Below, piece by piece: positions 17,001-26,935 of a stretch of 30,611 bases of DNA. Origin of the DNA: a virus; IMG/VR virus record IMGVR_UViG_3300010370_000155, positions 1-30,611 of that record. One strand, given 5' to 3'. How positions within the stretch are numbered: the stretch's first letter is position 1; each line of letters begins with the position of its first letter. The position numbers and the translations under genes were made by a program. The notes under the pieces were generated by a model. That model ran no database searches and had not been told where the DNA came from. It saw only the letters and a list, made by a program, of their open reading frames with translations.

Positions 17001-19199
17001 AACGTCATTGGCAACGGTGTTCGCCTTGTACAACTACCTGCCACCCAGGCCCTTGGTGCTGCAGTACAGGGTGAGTTCACTCGTGCCAGCCAAAGCATGT
17101 TGATCTATGGCCAGTACGTGCAGAACCTGCAGAACAGCATCCGACTTGGCGTGGAGTCGTTCAAGGTTGGCCGCGGCCTGTTTGACCTGGATGCCAGCTC
17201 TGCTGATTTCTTAGACCGCCTGGCAGCACAGGACGCAGATACCAACCTGGCCCGTCAGATCGCGACAGAGCAAGGTGAATGGACGTTAAACACGATGCCG
17301 TGGATTGACGTGCAGGACCGTGCGCCATGGGCCCTTGCACAACGCCGGATCTGGCAACTGCTGAACCTCAGCACCCGCATGCAGGTCAGTGCTGACACGT
17401 TCTTCAAGTCCATGGTGGGACAGTCGTTTGAGTACGTGCGCAACCTGCAGCCCGGTTTGGATCATGCGGTGCAGTTGGGCATGAAGCCTGGCAGTGCAGA
17501 GGCGCAGATCTTTGCCCGTGATTACGCCAAGGCTGCAGTGGATAAGACCCTGCGTGATGTCACGGTTGATGGCCGCACCATTCTTGATGCTGTGATGGAT
17601 AGCCCGCATGCACAGACAGCAATGCGGTGGGCCACATACACGGACGACATCATGGCCCAGATGCAACCGCGCACTACGACGCGGGGCATGGAGCTGGCAA
17701 CAGCTCAAGGCCTTGAAGGTGAAGCAGCTACAAAGTTTGCACAGGAGTACGTCGCCAAGGGCAGTGAAGACACTCCGATGTTCACCAAAGCGTTCAGCTT
17801 GATGCCTGCTGCATGGCAGAAGCTGATTGACTTCAGCCCAGTGTTCAGCGTTGTTCAGCCGTTTAACCGGACACCAGGCGACATTGTGAAGTCAGCAGCC
17901 AGGTCGACTCCTTTGGCTCCATTGGTTGATACCTGGTGGCGTGACATCAACAGTGAAGATGCTTTTACTCGTGATCGTGCCATTGGTGATGTGGCACTGG
18001 GCAGCACTGCAATGGCCCTTGCAACGCTGGCCGTTACGCAAGGCAACGTTGAGTTCACTGGTGGTGGCCCTATTGATCCGACAGCTCGTCGTAAGTGGTT
18101 TGACGAAGGCAAGCAGCCCTACTCATTCCGTGTGCGGGCTGGAGAGGATGAGAACGGAGAGCCGATCTACAGCGACTGGGTTGGCATGCAGGTGTTTGAA
18201 CCCTTTGCCACCTTGTTTGGTGCCATTGGGGACTACGTGGAGATCTCTAACAAGCTGCCTGTGGAAGCCAGGGAGAAGCTGGGTTCCACTTTGGTGTTGG
18301 ACGTGATCGGTGCTGTAGGTGCAGGCCAGCTCAGTAAGACCTACTACCAGGGCTTCATGCAGCTGTATGAGGCGTTCACGGGTGTTGGGCAGGTCGACAT
18401 CAGCCCCAATAAGCGCAACCCCATTGCCCGGTATGTGGAAAACATTGTTGCCTCCATGGTTCCAGGCAGCAGCGCCCTGCGGGCTGGACGTCGCATTCAG
18501 GACCCGACACTGCGGACAGTGCCGCCCAGCAATGAAGGCAACATGGTGATGAGCCTGTTCAACGAAACGCTTGGCGAACTGAAGAACATGATCCCTGGCT
18601 GGTCGGAGTCTCTGCCGCCGCGGTTGAACTGGGTCACGGCTGAACCACAGGCGCTGTCAGGCGTTTTTGCTGATCAGTTCCTGCCGCTGGATCAACCGTG
18701 GATTGCTTACCTGTTTCAGTTTGCGCCGACCTCTGCGTTCCCGATCAAGGCGGCGACCAAAGATCCGGTCATGAATGAAATGGCCAAGCTGTCGGGCAAG
18801 GGTGCATCGTTTATGGGACCACGGGAAAGCGACTTTGGGACTCAAAACCGCTTGGATCCTTACCAGTTCAACGAGTACATCAGGTCTGTGTCGCTGACCA
18901 AGGACGAGTTTGGACGGACATTGCATGACGCCTTATTGGAAGAGATCCAGTCGGAGCGGTACCAGCTGTTGCCAGAGGACTCAATCAGCCTCACTGTGAT
19001 GGGTGATCGTGCTGCATCGTTGAACCGGATCGTGACGTCGTTCATGAAGCGTGGGCGGGAGGACTTCTTGTCCAAGCCCATTGCCAAACCCATCGTGGAC
19101 AACCTTGAGTGGGTTGAAGGCCGTAACCGGGACGTCCAATTCCGGCTTAAATACGGTCAAGCTATTGATCCTCAGACCTTTGTGGAGAGCCTGCGCTAA
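14049..19199 (+). CDS. Internal virion protein D (T7 gp16-like), very large
   Basis: 1716 residues versus 1318 in T7. In T7 this protein is ejected into the host and helps draw in the genome. The N-terminus is Q-rich, without the transglycosylase domain found in T7 gp16. The region about residues 100-650 is A/P/T-rich with proline-rich linkers (for example GTPPPPPVEPP). The C-terminal ~750 residues are helical, with amphipathic and hydrophobic stretches (for example VGARGLVMYRAAQLLSSGLTFWRNVIGNGVRLVQ). These resemble the membrane-interacting part of gp16, and WRNVIGN and FFKSMV are typical of cyanopodovirus homologues. The tail-fibre ATG overlaps its TAA. The assignment comes from size, order and C-terminal character. 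Confidence 0.85.
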   Translation: MPYVVTVDPKTGEKTVSYQEGEQRAAKPQQQQQQGFNPLQAIGGAMTNAMQMSPIGLAAGNVQMVGGALGAGLQEYGRTGDLGKAGIKAQQTYQEALEAPTPAATVSRVAVNAARNVAQELSDVTTADLPAALGVKGARPTTAQQPDAPFLGRGAPLPKLKSSGPGEDLATGIVQAAIEWFPAAKAVGLVGKGLKLVPGVASAGAAVEAGKAAYTTQKAATIAALPAKAQKPAAAVAGVGEAIASNVLSKSAATGAVVDVFGFDQHGGRLYDLADNLHQKVVGTPLEVPFLDYLKSKPGDVGMAGRLKNGIEGAGLGAVGEGIYKAFRAAKYVERLRNAPAEQKPAAAAAAAQATKDLEDYGAQQAQVVTAPRAVAPEVATVPTVAAPGVITPEVIPPGATGPGTGRTLLSQQFREGMNRPGQSIGEYTQTVEGMVTRQGESLQQRAVDLGQRAQDLGAEAAAIQGATTPAPVAKVKLTATQQAELENMNTTLMQEMGVNFNQGLTREQLITLEQTIRIDYASPEQGGIETVSAATRRSMLGLADKFKKVADELPAAITPEPSVPSAGTPEPAGATAAIAAEAPVAPAAAAVAGPTPEEIRQIDESLAMGMANRTPEERAAIRDQMLVQKYGTSSPAELPPAEGTTAPAAPAMAEAGGAGTPPPPPVEPPTAVQPSVPDDNWAQQLVDQMAANREALEAGDLLPEDILQNNVQKIVSPSGRTQYVPAQADMVQAYRAFNDTFTRADATGIPAMSFEAIERDTQRKLVELNFDGPSVLDNLKRLSGPLSQYQDNLVALRAAMLYTDHTNLQAGVAANKWLNAQADDLANMNQLTAELLTAAAEQKRANVALDSVTRPIAQLLASLQNPRPTPGTLPFGEVEMEPAKNLRQELEDAMDAETGITVADSIGTPISPELRDSILTGEYTPQAMAELDVLARGMAQTAVTPGQAIGFWDKFNKSVGVGARGLVMYRAAQLLSSGLTFWRNVIGNGVRLVQLPATQALGAAVQGEFTRASQSMLIYGQYVQNLQNSIRLGVESFKVGRGLFDLDASSADFLDRLAAQDADTNLARQIATEQGEWTLNTMPWIDVQDRAPWALAQRRIWQLLNLSTRMQVSADTFFKSMVGQSFEYVRNLQPGLDHAVQLGMKPGSAEAQIFARDYAKAAVDKTLRDVTVDGRTILDAVMDSPHAQTAMRWATYTDDIMAQMQPRTTTRGMELATAQGLEGEAATKFAQEYVAKGSEDTPMFTKAFSLMPAAWQKLIDFSPVFSVVQPFNRTPGDIVKSAARSTPLAPLVDTWWRDINSEDAFTRDRAIGDVALGSTAMALATLAVTQGNVEFTGGGPIDPTARRKWFDEGKQPYSFRVRAGEDENGEPIYSDWVGMQVFEPFATLFGAIGDYVEISNKLPVEAREKLGSTLVLDVIGAVGAGQLSKTYYQGFMQLYEAFTGVGQVDISPNKRNPIARYVENIVASMVPGSSALRAGRRIQDPTLRTVPPSNEGNMVMSLFNETLGELKNMIPGWSESLPPRLNWVTAEPQALSGVFADQFLPLDQPWIAYLFQFAPTSAFPIKAATKDPVMNEMAKLSGKGASFMGPRESDFGTQNRLDPYQFNEYIRSVSLTKDEFGRTLHDALLEEIQSERYQLLPEDSISLTVMGDRAASLNRIVTSFMKRGREDFLSKPIAKPIVDNLEWVEGRNRDVQFRLKYGQAIDPQTFVESLR

Positions 19200-21463
19200 T
19201 GGCCTACTCATACATCACCTACACCGCAAACGGGTCGCAGACGCAGTTCTCGGTTCCCTTTGGTTACATCCGCAAGGAACACGTTTATGTGTCTGTTAAC
19301 CAGGTCAGCCAAAGCTATACCTGGGTTAATGACAGCACGGTGCAACTAGCGACAGCACCAACAGCTGGCTTGAAGGTTGAGGTGCGTCGTTCTACACCAG
19401 CTGATGCGTTGCTGGTGGACTTTGTTGACGGGTCTACGCCTGTTGCTGCTGACTTTGACACCAGCTCTCTGCAACACCTGTACTTAGAGCAGGAGCTGCA
19501 AGATAACCAAGGGCAGACCATTTCTATTGACCCAACAACAGGTCTCCCAACTGCAAACAACAACCGTATCACCAATGTTGGTACACCGGTCAATGCAAAT
19601 GATGCTGCGACCAAAAGTTATGTCGATGCAGCTGACGCCACTTTCCTAAAGAAGGACGGCAGCGTTACGGCGACAGGCGCTTTGCCCATGGGCGGGTTTA
19701 AGGTCACAAACCTTGGCACCCCTACTACAGGAACTGATGCCAGCACTAAGGCGTATGTAGACGCCAACATTGCTAGTGCTGCAGCCGATGCAGCATCAGC
19801 AGCAGCCAGTGCTGCATTGGCCAATGATTGGGCCACCAAAACCACTGGGGCGGTTGCTGGCGGGGAGTTCAGCGCCAAGTACCACGCACAGAACGCAGCA
19901 TCGTCCGCCAGTACAGCAAGCACTGCCTCTACCAGTGCGGCAAGCAGCAGCGCAGCTGCCAGTGCATCTGCCGTATCAGCGGCAGCCAGTGCAGCAAGTG
20001 CCGCGGCATTGCTGGATAACTTTGATGACCGCTATTTAGGCCCCAAGGCAAGCGACCCAACGCTGGACAATGACGGCAACGCGTTGGTAACCGGTGCGCT
20101 GTATTTCAACAGCACCACCGGTGTTATGCGTGTTTATACGGCCAGCGGGTGGGTAGATGCCACAACAGCGATTGTTGGCGTTCTGAATATTTTTGAATAC
20201 GTCGCCACCAATGGGCAAACAACGTTTACTGGCGCAGACGCCAATGGGGTAAGCCTGTCGTACACAGCAGGAGGGTTGATTGTTGTCCTTAACGGGGCTG
20301 TATTGCGCCCTGGAGATGACTACACCGCTAGCAATGGCACCAGCGTTGTTCTGGCATCAGCAGCAAGCGCAAATGACGAGTTGCAAATAATGGCCTTTGG
20401 CGACTTCAACGTTGCTAACCACTACACCAAAGCTGAATCAGATGCGCTGTTCCAGCCGTTAGATGCCAATACGGCAAAGCTAAACGTTGCTCAAAACTGG
20501 ACCGCTAACCAAACGCTTGGCAACCAAGCGGATCTGCGGTTTGGCGAGGCAACTGCCAATGGCACCAACTGGGTTGGCTTCCAAGCACCTGCGTCAATTG
20601 CAGCTGATGTGCTGTGGACGTTGCCTGCCGCAGATGGGACCAACGGCCAAGTGCTTAGCACCGACGGCTCTGGGGCATTGAGTTGGGCGGCTAGCACTGC
20701 TATTAGCGACAAAATTCAAGAAGGCAACACAAGCGCCGAAGTCATTGATACTGGCAGCGATGGCCAATTTGTTGTTACAACAGAAGGTTCAGAACGCCTT
20801 CGCGTCGACAGCTCCGGCAGGTTGCTGGCTGGCACGTCTTCGACTTCTCAGGCTTGCACTATTCAAGCTCAAGGCAATAGCTCCACTGGCGCAACTGGAC
20901 AAGGAATTATCAAGCTATCTCGTGGTGAGTCTTCACCTGCAAGTGGTGCTGCGTTAGGAGAAGTTTCTTTTGCGGATAGCGGACACGTAGCAGCAGCAAG
21001 CATTGCAATCTATCGAGATGGCGGAACTTGGACGTCTACAACAAGCCAGCCAACGCGATTGACGCTTTCAGTTAGCCAAAACAATTCGGCATCACAAACC
21101 GAAGCCCTTCGCATCACCAACGATCGAGTTATTTGCTACAACCAATCCACTCCTATCACCAAAGGTAGCAGCGCAACACTCACAGTTGATGAATTGAAAA
21201 CTGGCATTATTCTGGCTTCTGTAAGCGGTATAACCCTCACTCTTCCTCTTGGCAGCTCAATGGAAGGCGGCTTCAGTGGTATCTACACCAACATGACTTT
21301 TGAGTGGTCCTTGATAAACACTTCAAGCGGTAGCGTTAATATTGTTGGTAACACAAACCACACAATTGTTGGCTCAAGCGGATCGCTCGCAGCTAATACG
21401 TCTGGTCGCTTTGCATCGCGGAGAACGGCGGCTAATACTTTTGTTAGTTATCTTTTGGGCTAG
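19199..21463 (+). CDS. Tail fibre protein (T7 gp17-like N-terminus)
   Basis: 754 residues. The N-terminal ~110 residues (AYSYITYTANGSQTQFSVPF, YIRKEHVYVSVN) are the T7-type tail-attachment domain. Residues ~195-280 are an A/S-rich trimeric coiled-coil shaft. Residues ~440-500 (VLWTLPAADGTNGQVLSTDG) form a common phage fibre motif. From about residue 505 a different module begins (KIQEGNTSAEVIDTG, then ERLRVDSSGRLLAGTSS and a beta-rich end) of a kind I associate with cyanomyovirus fibres. The distal end sets host range. It starts with TAATG overlap to gp16. It is followed by 213 non-coding bases and a second fibre-like ORF, suggesting modular exchange. Confidence 0.88.
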   Translation: MAYSYITYTANGSQTQFSVPFGYIRKEHVYVSVNQVSQSYTWVNDSTVQLATAPTAGLKVEVRRSTPADALLVDFVDGSTPVAADFDTSSLQHLYLEQELQDNQGQTISIDPTTGLPTANNNRITNVGTPVNANDAATKSYVDAADATFLKKDGSVTATGALPMGGFKVTNLGTPTTGTDASTKAYVDANIASAAADAASAAASAALANDWATKTTGAVAGGEFSAKYHAQNAASSASTASTASTSAASSSAAASASAVSAAASAASAAALLDNFDDRYLGPKASDPTLDNDGNALVTGALYFNSTTGVMRVYTASGWVDATTAIVGVLNIFEYVATNGQTTFTGADANGVSLSYTAGGLIVVLNGAVLRPGDDYTASNGTSVVLASAASANDELQIMAFGDFNVANHYTKAESDALFQPLDANTAKLNVAQNWTANQTLGNQADLRFGEATANGTNWVGFQAPASIAADVLWTLPAADGTNGQVLSTDGSGALSWAASTAISDKIQEGNTSAEVIDTGSDGQFVVTTEGSERLRVDSSGRLLAGTSSTSQACTIQAQGNSSTGATGQGIIKLSRGESSPASGAALGEVSFADSGHVAAASIAIYRDGGTWTSTTSQPTRLTLSVSQNNSASQTEALRITNDRVICYNQSTPITKGSSATLTVDELKTGIILASVSGITLTLPLGSSMEGGFSGIYTNMTFEWSLINTSSGSVNIVGNTNHTIVGSSGSLAANTSGRFASRRTAANTFVSYLLG

Positions 21464-21676
21464 TAGCTCTACTTTCTACCCATAAGTCAAAGACCGGTTT
21501 GGCACTAAGAAGGTGGCTGAAATTGAAGCTGTTTTGCAAAGGTAACTTAATGAACAGCTCTATCCCATTGCTGCTGCAAGCATGCCGTGGCAGTAGAAAG
21601 CGAGAATGGCACAGCCGGAGTGGCAAAAAGTAGCGCAATCCTAATAAGCTGTTTCTAAGGCCTTCGCCTAGGAACA

Positions 21677-22183
21677 GTGGGTAAGTCACGGGATCTAGCC
21701 AGCAGCGTTAACGCAGGCAGCATTCCAGGCAGTCGCCTGGAGAACGATGCAATCACTGCCAGCAAGATGGCAGCCAACTCAGTGGATAGCAGTGAGTTGG
21801 CTAACGCAAGCGTGACCCCATCAAAGTTAAGTGGTGGGCAGTCTGGCTCTGCTCCTGTATTTGCAGCCCGTGCTTGGGTGCTATTTGACGGCACCAAGGA
21901 CACCAACGGGACCACAAGCACTGCCAATACAAACCGGCAGATCTTGGCCAGTGGGAACGTGACCAGTGTGCTGCGAAACGGAACTGGTGATTACACCATC
22001 ACGTTCACCACGGCCATGGCTGATGCCAACTATTGCGCCGTGAAGTCTGCTGGTGTTTCCAGCGGTTATGGGTACGAGATCTTTGACCAGGTCAAGACCA
22101 CGACCACATTGCGTCTTGGCTCTGGCCGTGACACTGCTAGTGCTGCTTTTGATGGCCAAATGAATGTGGTGGTGTTCCGTTGA
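21677..22183 (+). CDS. Tail-fibre-like distal domain protein (168 aa)
   Basis: Starts with GTG at 21677, with AGGAA about 6 bases upstream. The N-terminal half carries a repeat-like hinge seen in phage fibres (GSRLENDAITASKMAANSV and NASVTPSKLSGG). The second half begins ARAWVLFDGTKDTNGT and is a small beta domain ending NVVVFR, a common C-terminal receptor-binding type domain. It has no tail-attachment part of its own. Either it assembles onto the main fibre as a separate subunit, or it is the displaced distal end of an older, longer fibre. The next gene starts in TGATG overlap, so it is probably translated. Confidence 0.72.
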   Translation: MGKSRDLASSVNAGSIPGSRLENDAITASKMAANSVDSSELANASVTPSKLSGGQSGSAPVFAARAWVLFDGTKDTNGTTSTANTNRQILASGNVTSVLRNGTGDYTITFTTAMADANYCAVKSAGVSSGYGYEIFDQVKTTTTLRLGSGRDTASAAFDGQMNVVVFR

Positions 22184-22320
22184 TGGCCGTTAAATCCAAG
22201 ACTGCTCTGGGCCGAGTGGAGTTCAAGTCCAGGGCCAAGTTCAAAAAGACGAGCATTGGCAACTCCGTCAGGAGCAAGCCCAAACCTGGCCGGAAAAAGA
22301 GCCGCGGCCAAGGGTCTTAA
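22183..22320 (+). CDS. Small highly basic protein (45 aa)
   Basis: ATG at 22183 overlaps the TGA of the fibre-like gene, and the TAA at 22318-22320 overlaps the ATG of the next gene. The 45-residue product is mostly K, R, S and G (for example KSRAKFKKTSIG, KPGRKKSRGQGS), with few acidic residues. It could bind DNA or RNA or be a minor virion component; I do not recognise a family. The chained overlaps on both sides and the good codon use support a real gene. Confidence 0.7.
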   Translation: MAVKSKTALGRVEFKSRAKFKKTSIGNSVRSKPKPGRKKSRGQGS

Positions 22321-22649: not shown

Positions 22650-22877
22650 ATGAATACCGCCGTAACGGTGCTAGAGGTCGTTTCAGTCCTTGGTGTTGCC
22701 GCTGTTGGGGCGTTATGGAAGCTAGCTGTCGAGCATGGCTCCATGAAGCGCGGCATGGACGACATCTTGAATGAGGTCCGGTTGTTGAGGGAGGACTTGC
22801 AGAAGGACATCCAGCTACTGGAAGCGGATCTGCGGGACCACGAAATCAGGATCCGCAGGTTGGAAATAAAGGAATGA
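22650..22877 (+). CDS. Membrane-anchored coiled-coil protein, lysis candidate (75 aa)
   Basis: 75 residues: an N-terminal hydrophobic segment (about residues 4-24, AVTVLEVVSVLGVAAVGALWK) followed by a charged heptad-type helix to the end (LNEVRLLREDLQKDIQLLEADL and RDHEIRIRRLEIKE). This layout is like small phage lysis-associated proteins (inner-membrane spanin or XhlA-like), although XhlA has its membrane part at the C-terminus. AGGAA lies just upstream of the ATG. The end overlaps the next ATG (ATGA). The function is inferred from shape and place only. Confidence 0.62.
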   Translation: MNTAVTVLEVVSVLGVAAVGALWKLAVEHGSMKRGMDDILNEVRLLREDLQKDIQLLEADLRDHEIRIRRLEIKE

Positions 22878-23104
22878 ACCCAGTCGAACAGCCACTGGAG
22901 TTAGCCCTGAAAAAAGAGGCAAGGTTCCGTGAGCTGTTGGACATGCACTCAAAGGAAGAATGGGACTGTTTGCTAGATGCAGCAGCTTTGTTGAATGATG
23001 CGCTTTATACGCAGCAGGTGATGAACCGGTGGCTTGCCAAAGAGGCTGCGGATAATCTGAAGGAAGCCTGGGAGGCTCAACGCAACCATGACTCAATTCA
23101 CTGA
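22874..23104 (+). CDS. Hypothetical helical protein (76 aa)
   Basis: 76 residues, predicted all-helical and soluble, rich in L, A, E, K (for example ALKKEARFRELLDMHSKEEW, LKEAWEAQRN). It starts in ATGA overlap with the membrane-coiled-coil gene and overlaps the next membrane-protein gene by 17 bases. At this place T7 has the small terminase gene 18, but the better small-terminase candidate here is on the other strand at 26684-26935. I cannot assign a function. Confidence 0.68.
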   Translation: MNPVEQPLELALKKEARFRELLDMHSKEEWDCLLDAAALLNDALYTQQVMNRWLAKEAADNLKEAWEAQRNHDSIH

Positions 23105-23273
23105 TTACGTCGCACTGGCCTTAGCCCTTCATGCGGCGGCACTGATCTTTGTGAACATGACCCCGACGCCTAAGGACAACAAGGCTTTGGGTGACCTGTC
23201 CAAGCTGGTTGTACGGATCTACCGCGTGGTGGAGATCTTGGCTGGCATTGTCAGCCGCAAAGCAAAGCAGTGA
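23088..23273 (+). CDS. Small membrane protein (61 aa), holin-like
   Basis: 61 residues. Residues about 6-24 (DYVALALALHAAALIFVNM) form one membrane segment, followed by TPTPKDNKALGDL and a C-terminal amphipathic helix (VVRIYRVVEILAGIVSR) ending KAKQ. The pattern of hydrophobic segment, NxTPTPKD and YRxxEILAGI is one I associate with small conserved phage and cyanobacterial-virus membrane proteins of unproven function. It is a second or third candidate for the holin. Its stop overlaps the GTG of the next gene. Confidence 0.65.
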   Translation: MTQFTDYVALALALHAAALIFVNMTPTPKDNKALGDLSKLVVRIYRVVEILAGIVSRKAKQ

Positions 23274-23419
23274 AAAAGGCCAGCCGGGAAGACCTGAAGA
23301 TCAAGAAGGTCATGCGAGAGTTCAAGGGCGGCAAGTTGCGGTCCTCCAGTGGTCAGAAAGTGACCAACCAAAAGCAGGCACTGGCTATTGCGCTGAGTGA
23401 AGCCCGCAGGGCCCGCTGA
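23270..23419 (+). CDS. DUF6496-like small basic protein (49 aa)
   Basis: GTG at 23270 overlaps the preceding TGA (GTGA). The 49-residue product contains KKVMREFKGGKLRSSSGQK and VTNQKQALAIALSEAR, the signature of the short DUF6496 family found in many phages and bacteria; its function is not known. It closes the rightward late cluster. Its stop codon is inside the loop of a terminator hairpin, 5 bases from the stop of the convergent leftward gene. Confidence 0.78.
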   Translation: MKKASREDLKIKKVMREFKGGKLRSSSGQKVTNQKQALAIALSEARRAR

Positions 23420-23436
23420 GGCCCTTACTTTTTCTT
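23408..23436 (+). terminator. Terminator overlapping convergent stop codons
   Basis: 6-bp stem AGGGCC (23408-23413) / GGCCCT (23420-23425), loop of 6, then TACTTTTTCTT. It acts on the rightward strand only; read leftward, the stem is followed by a G/C-rich stretch. The stop codons of both converging genes lie in or next to the hairpin. Confidence 0.75.
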
Positions 23437-23580
23437 GGCGGTCTTGGCTGAATCCTTAAACGCCTTGGCGGTTGGTGCGCCCTTCTCGCCGGGCTTACGC
23501 ATGCGTTCGCCAGAGCCGGCTTCAATGCGTTCCCGCTTGCGGTGAATGTTGATGTAGAGGCCTTGTCTGGGGTCAGCCAT
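23425..23580 (-). CDS. Small conserved basic phage protein (51 aa)
   Basis: Read leftward from ATG at 23580 to TAA at 23425. The 51-residue product starts MADPRQGLYINIHRKRERI and continues with SGERMRKPGEKGAPT and AFKDSAKTAKKK. This is a short motif I recognise as recurring in tailed-phage genomes next to structural or lysis genes, with no known function. Its ATG overlaps the TAA of the upstream gene (TAATG). It is the last gene of the leftward operon. Confidence 0.75.
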   Translation of the reverse strand: MADPRQGLYINIHRKRERIEAGSGERMRKPGEKGAPTAKAFKDSAKTAKKK

Positions 23581-23768
23581 TAGTCAAACTCCTGTCGATG
23601 CAGTTGAAACGCCACAGCGCCGTCTTTGTGAACAGCGTAAAGCGTGCCACCACCGTTGGCGTTATAGGCCTTGAGCAAGTAGCCGTAGAGGTCTTTGTGG
23701 GTGTCGGCGTACTTAGCCATCAGGTCAATCAGTACAGCCAGCTGAGAACGTGGAAGCAGGCGTTTCAT
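23580..23768 (-). CDS. Hypothetical protein (62 aa)
   Basis: I use the ATG at 23768 (MKRLLPRSQLAVLIDLMAKY). A TTG at 23783 would add five residues and overlap the upstream tiny gene. The 62-residue product has an N-terminal helical half and a C-terminal half with NGGGTLYAVHKDGAVAFQLH that could be a small beta hairpin. It is not recognised. It is tied to the downstream gene by a TAATG overlap. Confidence 0.65.
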   Translation of the reverse strand: MKRLLPRSQLAVLIDLMAKYADTHKDLYGYLLKAYNANGGGTLYAVHKDGAVAFQLHRQEFD

Positions 23769-23779
23769 CGGCCATCCGA

Positions 23780-23830
23780 TCAATAGCTTTTTTTGCCACC
23801 GCCTTTGCCGCCTTTGCCGCCTTTTTTCAT
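23780..23830 (-). CDS. 16-residue K/G peptide gene (tentative)
   Basis: A tiny ORF, ATG at 23830 to TGA at 23780-23782, encoding 16 residues that are nearly all K and G (a GGK repeat) ending KKSY. It begins 12 bases after the peptidase stop and fills the gap before the 62-aa gene. Without it this gap would be non-coding. The sequence is too short for statistical support and no strong ribosome site is visible, so this is tentative. Confidence 0.42.
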   Translation of the reverse strand: MKKGGKGGKGGGKKSY

Positions 23831-23842
23831 GAGCCTGAAGAA

Positions 23843-24433
23843 TCAGTAATCCCAGCGTACCCGTGGCTTGCCAGCACGTATGCCCAGATGGACAAACCCG
23901 CGGTCTGCGCCGTAACCAACTGAGTAAGGCCAGTACTGATCACAGAAATCTTGAACCCGATGGATGCTGGCACCGTCGACGTAGAAGTCCACAGCGCCAG
24001 TGTCACGACGGTCGTAGAGGTGTTCGCTGTTGGTGGCACCTCCGCAAGCCCGGTTGATAGCAGGGGGCCTGTAGCCGCTTGTGATGATCACAGGCTTGCT
24101 GCCAAAGGCAGAGCGCACACGCTCTAAGAACTGCGCCAACACCACTGCTGTGTCGCATTGGTATTGATACTGAAAGCGACGGTCCTCGCTGTTCAGTGCA
24201 AACTCGCCGTAGGTGATGTGCGGCGTGATCTTGATGGAGAACGACGACGCAGGGGTAAATACAACAGCTTGTGTTGGCTGTAAATCCTTGGGTTTTGGCG
24301 CTGCACGGTATAGCTCAGCAAACTCACTGACCTGATCTGGCGTCAGCTTTTGCTGCAGGGCGTTCCAAGCCGCCATTTGGTGTGGCAAGGCTTTGTATGC
24401 CTTGGCAGCGTCAGTCAGCCGGATTGTGCCCAT
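23843..24433 (-). CDS. M15-type peptidase, endolysin candidate
   Basis: I start at ATG 24433 (MGTIRLTDAA), giving 196 residues; an upstream in-frame ATG at 24505 would overlap the previous gene more deeply. The C-terminal half is a zinc peptidase of the M15 (D-Ala-D-Ala carboxypeptidase-like) type. It has ITSGYRPPAINR (about residues 117-128), SEH with H138, AVDF with D149 and FVHLG with H182, giving the His-Asp-His zinc set. The N-terminal ~75 residues are helical with a P/K linker. Such enzymes cut peptidoglycan cross-links and serve as phage endolysins. There is no signal peptide, so it would need a holin, consistent with the small membrane genes at 22320-23273. Confidence 0.8.
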   Translation of the reverse strand: MGTIRLTDAAKAYKALPHQMAAWNALQQKLTPDQVSEFAELYRAAPKPKDLQPTQAVVFTPASSFSIKITPHITYGEFALNSEDRRFQYQYQCDTAVVLAQFLERVRSAFGSKPVIITSGYRPPAINRACGGATNSEHLYDRRDTGAVDFYVDGASIHRVQDFCDQYWPYSVGYGADRGFVHLGIRAGKPRVRWDY

Positions 24434-24668
24434 GGATTGCGAGGGGGTCTTTGGGGAAGATCTGGCAGTTGGAGACCTTAAAGGGCAGCCGCTCCCATAC
24501 ATCACAGCTCATGGCGATCTCCCATGCCATGTCTTCCGTTTCAGCCATGACAATGGTCTGGAACGAACCCTTTTCCTTGTTGCCGTCGTAGCCAACAAAG
24601 ACACCAGGCAGACGAATCACCCAGGCCCTAGGCCGTGGAGCGAGATCTGGACGGGATCCAACTGCCAT
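24411..24668 (-). CDS. Hypothetical protein (85 aa) between terL and peptidase
   Basis: I use the ATG at 24668 (MAVGSRPDLAPRPRAWVIRL), which has AAGG upstream; an ATG at 24719 lies deeper in terL. The 85-residue product has a short beta-type core (WVIRLPGVFVGYDG, FQTIVMAETEDMAWEIA) and a C-terminal half with CDVWERLPFKV. It overlaps the end of terL by 41 bases and the peptidase start by 23. It is not recognised. A small protein after the large terminase is common in T7-like phages, but I see no match to T7 19.2/19.3/19.5. Confidence 0.62.
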   Translation of the reverse strand: MAVGSRPDLAPRPRAWVIRLPGVFVGYDGNKEKGSFQTIVMAETEDMAWEIAMSCDVWERLPFKVSNCQIFPKDPLAIHGHNPAD

Positions 24669-26373
24669 TTGCTGGTGCCTTAGGAAGGTCCGCAAGAGAA
24701 ATGCCAAGAAATTGAGCATCGAGTGCGCCGTGCAAATTCCCCATGAACGCTTCCAGTTCTAGATCCCACAACTCCGACTGTCGCTCCCTGATGGCTCTGT
24801 CTTCATCAATGGCCAGGGACTCGTTCCAGTACTCAACAGCACCGGCCAGGGCGTCTAAGCGGTCGTCGTGCTGCAGGCAGTTCTTGTCGACGGTGATGTG
24901 GGTGAGTTGGTGGAACAACTGGTAGGCCAGTTGCTTCTCAATTGATTCCTGCTCTCGTCCCTTGGTGTCGTTTTCAATGACGGAACGGTTAATGACCAGC
25001 CGGTGTTGGTTCATGACCGGCTCTAGGGCGTTAATGATCCGTCGTTCCTTCTGCATGTTGGAGCGACGGGGCTCAATGGTGCAGGGGTGGTGGACCTGCA
25101 GATAGGGCTTCAACAGGTTTTCCAGCATGCCTTGGCCAAACTGGTCTTCCAGGAGGATCAGGTTGACCTTGTTGCGTTTGGCAGCCTTGGCCATGGACTC
25201 CAAAACGGTGTCGGAGTAGCCATCACGGAAGGCACCGACCTCCAAGACGTAGAGGTTGCCGTTGAGTTGGGCGACGATGGCGTAGGCGGTCTCGTCAGAA
25301 CCCCGTCCAGAGGGGTCAATGAACATGACTACGCCTTGAAACTCAAGCCAGTTGCCGTGGATGTAGGCCGGACGGTGGTAGAAGTCACCGCTGAAACCCA
25401 CCGCGGGCAGGTCGGTAATGCGGTATTCGGCACCAGACGACCAGACGACTTTCTCTGGCCCGTGATCCGATACCTCTAAGACAATCAGGTCCGACAAACG
25501 GAGCGGGAAACGCTCCAAGTCGGACAAGCTGGTGTCCAGCTGGAACTGCAACGCAAACGCAGAGCGGCCATACGACGCTTCACGCTCCAGCAGGTCCAGT
25601 TCAGAAAAGCGACCAGGGTCTGTTGGCTTACCAACCAGGTCATTGGCGTCCCCTGCAATGACCGGAGCCAAGGCTTCACCGTATTTCTCAGGTTTTTCCG
25701 GGTACCTGGCAGGCCAAATGCGGGCTTCATAGCCCCGTAGACGGAGCTTGTTGTAGATGGATTCTTCAGTTTGTGGGGTGCCAAGGAACATGACTTCCCC
25801 GCCAGGCTTGAGGATGGCGTTGAACTCACCGACGCAGTTCAACAGCTTCTCCCTCATGCCAACTGTCCAGCTGGTATTGGGTACTTCAACGTCATCCGGC
25901 AGGATCAGGTCGGCACGGGAACCCGTGAGCTGACCAAAGACACCCACTGACTTGACCGATGGGCTCTGATCTGGAATAGCAGGCCTGACATCAAAGCGGT
26001 TTGCTGCAGATCGCTGTTCATCACGGTCTGGCTCCAGACATTGGAGCAATGGCATCTCACGGATTAAGCGCAAACAGAACTGAGCAAAGTCATCAGCCCG
26101 TGTCTTGGAGGCTGATACGACCATGATCTTTTTCTGTGGGTCATTGCGCAGTAACCACAACACATAGGCCGCGGCCATCCATGACTTACCGACACCACGG
26201 AAGGCTTCCACGATCCGCCGCTTGGGACCGTGTTGCATGAAATGAGCAATATCCAGCTGGATTGGCGTTGGATCCGGCAGACCTAAATGACGCCAGACAA
26301 CAACAAGAAAATACCGGAAGTCATCATTAAACGGCTCAGGAAGCGGTTGAAAGCCAACAGTAGGCTTAGCCAT
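24628..26373 (-). CDS. terL: Terminase large subunit (T7 gp19-like)
   Basis: 581 residues (T7 gp19 is 586). It is the ATPase-nuclease motor that pumps DNA into the capsid through the portal and cuts the concatemer. Motifs seen in order: Walker A FRGVGKSW (58-65), Walker B ADLILPDDVE (154-163), and the coupling motif FLGTPQTEES (196-205). The nuclease acidic residues follow at D353 (FIDPSGRG), E409/D410 (LLEDQFGQG) and D503/D504 (HDDRLDAL). All key residues are present. It is on the minus strand, opposite to the virion genes, and its ATG overlaps the TAA of the 103-aa gene. In T7 the gene is co-directional with the tail genes. Confidence 0.96.
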   Translation of the reverse strand: MAKPTVGFQPLPEPFNDDFRYFLVVVWRHLGLPDPTPIQLDIAHFMQHGPKRRIVEAFRGVGKSWMAAAYVLWLLRNDPQKKIMVVSASKTRADDFAQFCLRLIREMPLLQCLEPDRDEQRSAANRFDVRPAIPDQSPSVKSVGVFGQLTGSRADLILPDDVEVPNTSWTVGMREKLLNCVGEFNAILKPGGEVMFLGTPQTEESIYNKLRLRGYEARIWPARYPEKPEKYGEALAPVIAGDANDLVGKPTDPGRFSELDLLEREASYGRSAFALQFQLDTSLSDLERFPLRLSDLIVLEVSDHGPEKVVWSSGAEYRITDLPAVGFSGDFYHRPAYIHGNWLEFQGVVMFIDPSGRGSDETAYAIVAQLNGNLYVLEVGAFRDGYSDTVLESMAKAAKRNKVNLILLEDQFGQGMLENLLKPYLQVHHPCTIEPRRSNMQKERRIINALEPVMNQHRLVINRSVIENDTKGREQESIEKQLAYQLFHQLTHITVDKNCLQHDDRLDALAGAVEYWNESLAIDEDRAIRERQSELWDLELEAFMGNLHGALDAQFLGISLADLPKAPANGSWIPSRSRSTA

Positions 26374-26684
26374 TAAGCCTTACTGATTTTGACGGCAACA
26401 GTACCGCCATTGATTGCTGTGATGTTGACCCGTACATAGGCCGCGGCGTCTGCTACGTGTTTATGGATCACAACACCATTAGTCAGGTCTGCTTTTTTAG
26501 AGGTTTCATCGGCATACCAGTTGATGTTGTCAAGGGAGTCCTGAAACTCGAGGTTGACCTTATTGGCACCAGTAAGACCTGTGATAACAGCTTGAAACGC
26601 AACGCAGTTGCCATCAGAAATGACAGAAGGCGTTGCCCCAATAGCAGTAAACGACCCAAGGTCAGTAACAACAGGGAAAACCAT
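26373..26684 (-). CDS. Beta-rich small protein between terS and terL (103 aa)
   Basis: 103 residues, dominated by alternating hydrophobic/polar stretches that suggest a beta sandwich (FQAVITGLTGANKVNLEFQ, SLDNINWYADET, YVRVNITAINGGTVAVKIS). It has no catalytic motif. This looks like a decoration, neck or fibre-type virion protein rather than a packaging enzyme. Its start overlaps the stop of the small-terminase gene and its stop overlaps the terL start, so all three are coupled. I cannot name the family; an Ig-like virion protein is my best guess. Confidence 0.7.
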   Translation of the reverse strand: MVFPVVTDLGSFTAIGATPSVISDGNCVAFQAVITGLTGANKVNLEFQDSLDNINWYADETSKKADLTNGVVIHKHVADAAAYVRVNITAINGGTVAVKISKA

Positions 26685-26935
26685 CAGCCTGCTCTGCGAT
26701 TACGTGGATGCATCGTCACCACATTCTGTATGTCTGGCAACGAAGCGACCAGATCACCAAATGGTGTGCCTTGTACTGGCTGAGCACTGATGGCGTTGTC
26801 CTTCAAAAACTGCCGAAGGATTCCTAGTTCTGCTGTAGTGATCGACCCATCATCCAACTTGGCTTTGAGGTGATACGCCAGGTCGGCATGAAGAGACGAC
26901 AACAGCTCAGTGGTGTCGTTGTTCTTTCGGGCCAT
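26684..26935 (-). CDS. terS: Terminase small subunit (T7 gp18-like)
   Basis: 83 residues, close to T7 gp18 (89). Helical N-terminal part (TELLSSLHADLAYHLKAKL), then TTAELGILRQFLKDNAIS, which is the typical segment of T7-type small terminases. A less ordered C-terminus ends in basic residues (PRNRRAG). The small subunit recognises concatemer DNA and regulates the motor. It lies two genes upstream of terL with translational coupling in between. A G-rich run (AAGGGGGG on the minus strand) about 10 bases upstream of the ATG may serve as ribosome site. The call is based on size, motif and neighbourhood. Confidence 0.8.
   Translation of the reverse strand: MARKNNDTTELLSSLHADLAYHLKAKLDDGSITTAELGILRQFLKDNAISAQPVQGTPFGDLVASLPDIQNVVTMHPRNRRAG

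Follow-up and report, generated by a model that had tools for sequence, protein, structure and literature searches.

How did the fibre locus of this virus come to hold a tail fibre gene with a switched distal end, a gap, and a small gene of its own behind them? The locus was analysed in a window of 30,611 bases, which is a whole IMG/VR virus record obtained by metagenome assembly; the record is incomplete. A sequence-only reading had placed a fibre gene at 19199-21463 and a GTG-started ORF of 168 aa at 21677-22183, separated by 213 bases, and this layout was confirmed. The features of the locus, all on the plus strand, are as follows.

19199..21463, + strand: fibre gene with a T7-type anchor and a mosaic distal part, 754 aa, ATG start (PF03906; several tail-fibre PHROGs)
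19199..20510, + strand: own-lineage part of the fibre, residues 1 to about 437 (likeness to the L124 fibre)
20711..21463, + strand: imported distal module, residues 505-754, with the terminal cap at about 21179-21463 (IMG/VR loci, named cyanophages, GC3 drop)
21464..21481, + strand: possible remnant of a donor leader after the fibre stop (weak likeness to L098, by eye)
21486..21596, + strand: relic of DUF7936 (PF25590), last 36 codons, 5' two thirds missing (tblastn, hmmsearch)
21587..21634, + strand: probable relic of the start of a donor SKT gene (MAVKSKT...), which overlaps the end of DUF7936 in the manner of the donors
21670..21676, + strand: leader with the ribosome-binding site for the 168-aa gene (alignment to L037)
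21677..22183, + strand: accessory tail-tip gene, GTG start, with an RDLA tag (MGKSRDLAS), a shaft-like stem and a lectin-like head at about residues 64-168 (synteny, dN/dS, PHROG 11355, Foldseek)
22183..22320, + strand: intact small basic SKT gene, the conserved 3' boundary of the fibre cluster, whose start overlaps the 168-aa gene's stop

Lineage of the virus

The window belongs to a T7-like phage group with the terminase genes on the opposite strand. Among isolates, the MPP-C Prochlorococcus phages P-SCSP1 have the closest terminase (77.7% identical). A search with the single window sequence of the virion protein gave no close relatives; a profile built from four relatives retrieved 36 loci. 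The IMG/VR relatives L037, L116/L117, L128 and L129 have virion proteins about 55-58% and terminases about 80-86% identical to those of the window (57% and 86%, respectively, in L037). The order of virion protein, fibre, cargo genes and inverted terminase is common to them, and most also contain the small SKT gene.

The terminase genes of the window (24628-26935) are on the minus strand and convergent with the structural genes; a minus-strand terminase was likewise found in L037, L116, L128, L129, L134, L142 and the isolate P-SCSP1a. At 43-1831, a helicase fragment, an NrdR-like zinc-ribbon ORF (PF22811) and an exonuclease are closely spaced, with no DNA polymerase between them. This recalls the MPP-C cyanopodoviruses without a DNA polymerase gene; as the window record is incomplete, the absence is unproven. 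Comparison of L142 with window positions 22668-26349 showed 88-89% DNA identity in the right part and about 39% protein identity in the virion protein on the left, a contrast that represents backbone mosaicism around the fibre locus.

The fibre gene and its distal module

Residues 2-144 of the fibre matched the T7 tail-fibre N-terminal domain PF03906 (E = 1.5e-35; 122.6 bits against a curated cut-off of 25.2), and the protein is a T7-type tail fibre by its N-terminal adaptor domain. The fibre of P-SCSP1u is a homotrimer attached between the adaptor and the nozzle (PMC10575957). Past residue 505, GC3 drops from about 0.55 to 0.25-0.42, and the module border at about this residue is real. The sequence-only reading had already placed a switch in a T7-like fibre there. 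The fibre of L124 is 74.6% identical to that of the window over residues 1-150 and 66.8% over residues 151-438, and has a different end thereafter. Another border therefore lies near residue 438, and the border at about residue 505 is the second of two.

The distal module (residues 505-754, mostly the last 95 residues) was found at 32 IMG/VR loci, with the cap 59-72% identical. It is also present in S-LBS1, which is a cyanosiphovirus (PMC6157547), in S-RIP1 and DSL-LC07 (both Autographiviridae), and in DSL-LC02 (Kyanoviridae). The module is foreign to the lineage of the window. It is spread over cyano-podo-, sipho- and myoviruses, and its earlier assignment to a specifically cyanomyovirus type was too narrow. 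The structure model of the module (pLDDT 65.8) was too poor to interpret and gave chance-like matches only; a sequence search against solved structures gave only a weak match to a surface protein.

The usual next gene of the module encodes DUF7936 (PF25590). Among 25 IMG/VR loci where the module end is complete, 22 have this gene starting 6-345 bases 3' of it; some of these loci are near-duplicates. The distance is 25 bases in DSL-LC02 and 986 in S-LBS1. In S-LBS1 (L119, 4283-5400), the DUF7936-like sequence is separated from the fibre cap by an integrase gene. No mention of DUF7936 was found in the literature searched.

A DUF7936 relic in the 213-base gap

Translated, the gap reads VKDRFGTKKVAEIEAVLQR*LNEQLYPIAAASMPWQ*, which corresponds to the C-terminal third of DUF7936 interrupted by a single stop (TAA at 21543-21545, in frame). 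The match was found by tblastn (E = 1.7e-6), and it was the sole match across the six frames of the window when searched by hmmsearch with a profile built from 20 DUF7936 sequences (E = 1.1e-6). The gap DNA aligned to the donor-type locus L083 with a score of 58; the maximum in 100 shuffles was 27. The gap is therefore a real scar, above chance. Of the domain (about 103 residues when complete), only the last 36 codons are present, interrupted by the internal stop, and the sequence is a relic rather than a member of the family. The insertion of a foreign distal module that left a scar, as the sequence-only reading had proposed, thus found support, the scar being the truncated 3' end of the module's usual neighbour.

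The best DUF7936 matches to the relic have 68-69% DNA identity. The relic matches the DUF7936 beside the same cap at 21-22 of 34 positions, against 13 of 34 for the backbone relative L129. Because the relic is closest to the DUF7936 of same-cap loci and less close to that of L129, the most likely course is a joint arrival of cap and DUF7936, with truncation of DUF7936 afterwards. L129 belongs to the window's own lineage and also has DUF7936, so it is not certain which arm was inserted. In another possible reading, DUF7936 would be a dispensable partner of the window-type fibre end.

Behind the DUF7936 relic comes what is probably the beginning (21587-21634) of SKT, the gene that is next in the donor. 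In L083, L085 and L088, SKT overlaps the DUF7936 end exactly as GTGGCAGTA does in the window; past GTGGCAGTA, the window has VAVESENGTAGV against VAVKSKTGTARI. The putative SKT relic ranked 2 of 61,098 positions, behind the window's own intact SKT copy. When its first three residues (VAV) were left out, the rank was 28 or 9, which is not outstanding. Upstream of the DUF7936 relic, TAGTAGCTCTACTTTCTA (from the stop codon at 21461) weakly resembles by eye the post-stop sequence TAGTAGTCCTACTCACTA of L098.

Past the DUF7936 relic, bases 21635-21669 included, the gap gave no alignment above shuffles. Against named phages, the gap DNA had only one meaningful match, a weak one to S-RIP1. A degenerate pattern for the relic peptide had no matches, and scans of the gap for promoters, terminators and Rfam families gave nothing usable. 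Two candidate genes were rejected as shadows of the relic: the small ORF at 21499-21633, and the antisense ORF at 21444-21689, whose frame aligns to the same donor DNA. Readthrough joining the fibre and the tail-tip gene was also ruled out, because stops occur in all three forward frames of the gap.

The 168-aa tail-tip gene

DNA homology to L037 begins at 21670, where AGGAACA-GTG of the window aligns with AGGAGCA-ATG. The gene starts are MAKPRDLANSVNSSSIPGSRLENDAITASKMAANSVDSSELAN in L037 and MGKSRDLASSVNAGSIPGSRLENDAITASKMAANSVDSSELAN in the window, and both are separate genes. The same stem is a separate gene with the same start in L037, L116/L117, L128 and L142, which lack the window's module. 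A start directly before K-x-RDLA, separate from the fibre, was found in L037, L116, L128, L142, L118 and L134; the start codon is GTG in L116 and L142 and ATG in L128, and the L118 gene opens with an identical MGKSRDLA. The dN/dS of the stem was 0.126, 0.122 and 0.109 in three pairs (about 0.12), and the stem is under purifying selection.

The heads of these genes are variable. By inspection, those of L037, L116 and L128 are C1q-like. L142 and L118 have a different type, and the tag of L134 stands before a protein resembling pectate lyases (PF12708). The gene could also be lost. For example, L127 and L128 are 97.7-97.9% identical, and L127 has lost most of the RDLA gene by an in-frame internal deletion with the fibre intact (L127 13080-13150 against L128 13079-13633; about 480 bases gone, an in-frame remnant of 23 residues left). 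Because relatives have the same-start stem gene, the stem is under purifying selection, and L127 lost the gene but kept its fibre, the 168-aa gene is an accessory unit whose turnover is independent of the fibre. It is a conserved gene with its own start, and not the orphan distal piece that it had been taken for. SKT homologues close the cluster at donor-type and backbone-type loci alike.

The head of the 168-aa protein matched PHROG 11355; a sequence search of the tail-tip alignment against solved structures was negative. The structure model had a pLDDT of 73.8, with about 90 over much of residues 71-120. Foldseek hits of the head were the Pam1 tailspike, AP22 gp53, R-pyocin feet, SLL-2 and Helix pomatia agglutinin; the single scores were weak (best E = 3e-3), though the set of phage feet and lectins is coherent. 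Pyocin feet, AP22 gp53, podophage tailspike ends, the agglutinin and the octocoral lectin form one discoidin-like lectin jellyroll group (PMC6363177). Our best guess from the model is that the protein might be a glycan-binding tail tip. Judging from its fold and its neighbours, it would most likely be present in the virion together with the fibre and bind surface glycans.

Proposed history and alternative explanations

The receptor-binding gene cluster was probably built by recombination. The order in the lineage, as seen in several relatives, is the internal virion protein, the T7-type anchor fibre, one or more variable cargo genes, SKT and the inverted terminase block. The distal end of the fibre would then have been replaced by the module of another phage. 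The incoming DNA would have extended past the fibre stop into the donor DUF7936, probably into the start of the donor SKT, and the junction would have formed ahead of the resident 168-aa gene. The cargo gene that relatives have at that site is absent from the window. About 240 bases, from the fibre stop to DUF7936 codon 66, may then have been deleted, so that the fibre stayed intact and a dead tail of 36 codons remained. The 168-aa gene would be a resident accessory tail-tip protein with a conserved tag and stem and an exchangeable head, which in the window would be a small jellyroll similar to the domains of pyocin feet and H-type lectins. We infer both the co-transfer, from the relic, and the order of the events.

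The reverse polarity is unlikely. In that case fibre-DUF7936-SKT would be native, and a block comprising the tail-tip gene and SKT would have come in from an L037-like phage and disrupted both DUF7936 and the old SKT. The intact fibre-DUF7936-SKT of L129, a member of the same lineage, would agree with this, as would the gain or loss of the tail-tip gene elsewhere (L127/L128) and the partial SKT to its left with an intact SKT to its right. However, the relic resembles the copies beside the foreign cap and not the DUF7936 of L129; moreover, L037, L116 and L142 share the flanking backbone and have the tail-tip gene before SKT with no DUF7936. That the assembly fused two strains at the conserved start of the tail-tip gene is quite improbable. 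Both sides belong to the same lineage by virion protein and terminase identity to L037, and the relic lies wholly to the left of the suspected join and would be real even so. What suggests a fusion is that L142 matches the right part well and the left part poorly, and that the 4,730-base contig L114 (99.98% identical) starts at window position 21684, inside the tail-tip gene and in the junction region. Strain variation, or a fork of the assembly at the junction, may account for this start.

The sequence-only reading had regarded the 168-aa ORF as the former fibre end, displaced and with a newly gained start. It is true that the ORF consists of nothing but stem and distal domain, and that the fibre end before it has been replaced. 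This explanation is nevertheless extremely improbable, as at least four relatives that lack the module have this stem in a gene of its own with the same start, the L118 gene has the identical opening, the ribosome-binding site aligns with that of L037, and the stem is under purifying selection. The reading had also held that relatives with the same two-gene layout, and selection in the gap, would speak against an insertion; such relatives exist, but the gap is a decayed relic and not a conserved element. Its suggestion of two alternative receptor-binding ends was not supported: the parts examined contained only short, imperfect, chance-like repeats, with no flanking invertible repeat, and no recombinase family among the proteins scanned from this incomplete record. 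Two co-existing tail-tip proteins are more likely than alternative ends.

Exchange of fibre ends between phages is well known, and the mosaicism at this locus is of a known kind. Usually such an exchange is deduced from mosaic sequence; at this locus, a dead piece of the donor's next gene marks it. On the recombination history preferred here, the relic indicates that the module and its downstream neighbour moved as one, and that the neighbour need not persist intact. The comparison also separates replacement of the fibre end from independent turnover of a second tail-tip gene, in which the stem is fixed and the head changes.

The N-terminal tag

The opening of the 168-aa gene (M-x-K-x-RDLA) matches a short N-terminal tag, MTKARDLAN, of many unrelated aquatic phage tail proteins. 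The pattern MTK-x-RDLAN was found in at least 120 stretches in IMG/VR. Eight of the tag residues were fixed by the pattern in most loci, and only the fourth is an unbiased test; among the matches listed, 107 of 118 distinct contexts have Ala there. Exact copies of MTKARDLAN among these matches number 105 and have 51 different DNA codings; the tag is therefore conserved at the protein level. In most of the listed copies, a stop lies only a few codons ahead of the start, and the heads of the 88 listed proteins of at least 100 aa fall into 23 groups at the chosen threshold. Very short tagged ORFs (32-45 aa) with recurring ends (TPTALMTMGA or VIEDIMDSK) were observed in L159, L161, L179, L181, L193 and L222. 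The literature searched contained no mention of MTKARDLAN.

Tentatively, the tag might be a shared docking signal of stand-alone tail-tip proteins, by which unrelated heads plug into the tails of many aquatic phages. Under this possible but less than even reading, the heads would include lectin-like, C1q-like, pectate-lyase-like, glycine-rich and other types. If it is true, nine residues would reveal receptor-binding proteins in uncultured aquatic phages. The role is one that we infer, and the tag is the most novel and most interesting lead of this analysis.

Comparison with known systems

The MPP-C cyanopodoviruses (P-SCSP1a/P-SCSP1u; PMC9860041, PMC10575957) also have the terminase on the opposite strand and several tail-tip-like genes 3' of the fibre; whereas their fibre and tail-tip genes are only distantly similar to those of the window. 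Neither DUF7936 nor the SKT gene was found in the stretch of P-SCSP1a examined. The fibre-DUF7936-SKT cassette of the cyanophage-like contigs L083, L085, L088 and L098 has the same distal module or cap as the window, and so do S-RIP1 and DSL-LC02, in which the fibre is followed by DUF7936. The downstream genes of these cassette loci match the window relic; they are intact there, whereas the window retains a 36-codon relic of DUF7936.

The jellyroll heads of the R-pyocin foot, AP22 gp53 and the H-type lectins (PMC6363177) resemble the window head in fold, with weak scores, but have no sequence similarity to it. The KP32-type phages have a second receptor-binding protein beside the anchor fibre (PMC8262889). 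As in the window, the KP32/K11-type Klebsiella podoviruses encode receptor-binding proteins in separate genes behind that of a T7-type anchor fibre, with modules exchanged across phage groups. The second gene of the window differs from theirs in that it is small (168 aa), has a tag-stem-head plan with putative docking, and encodes no depolymerase.
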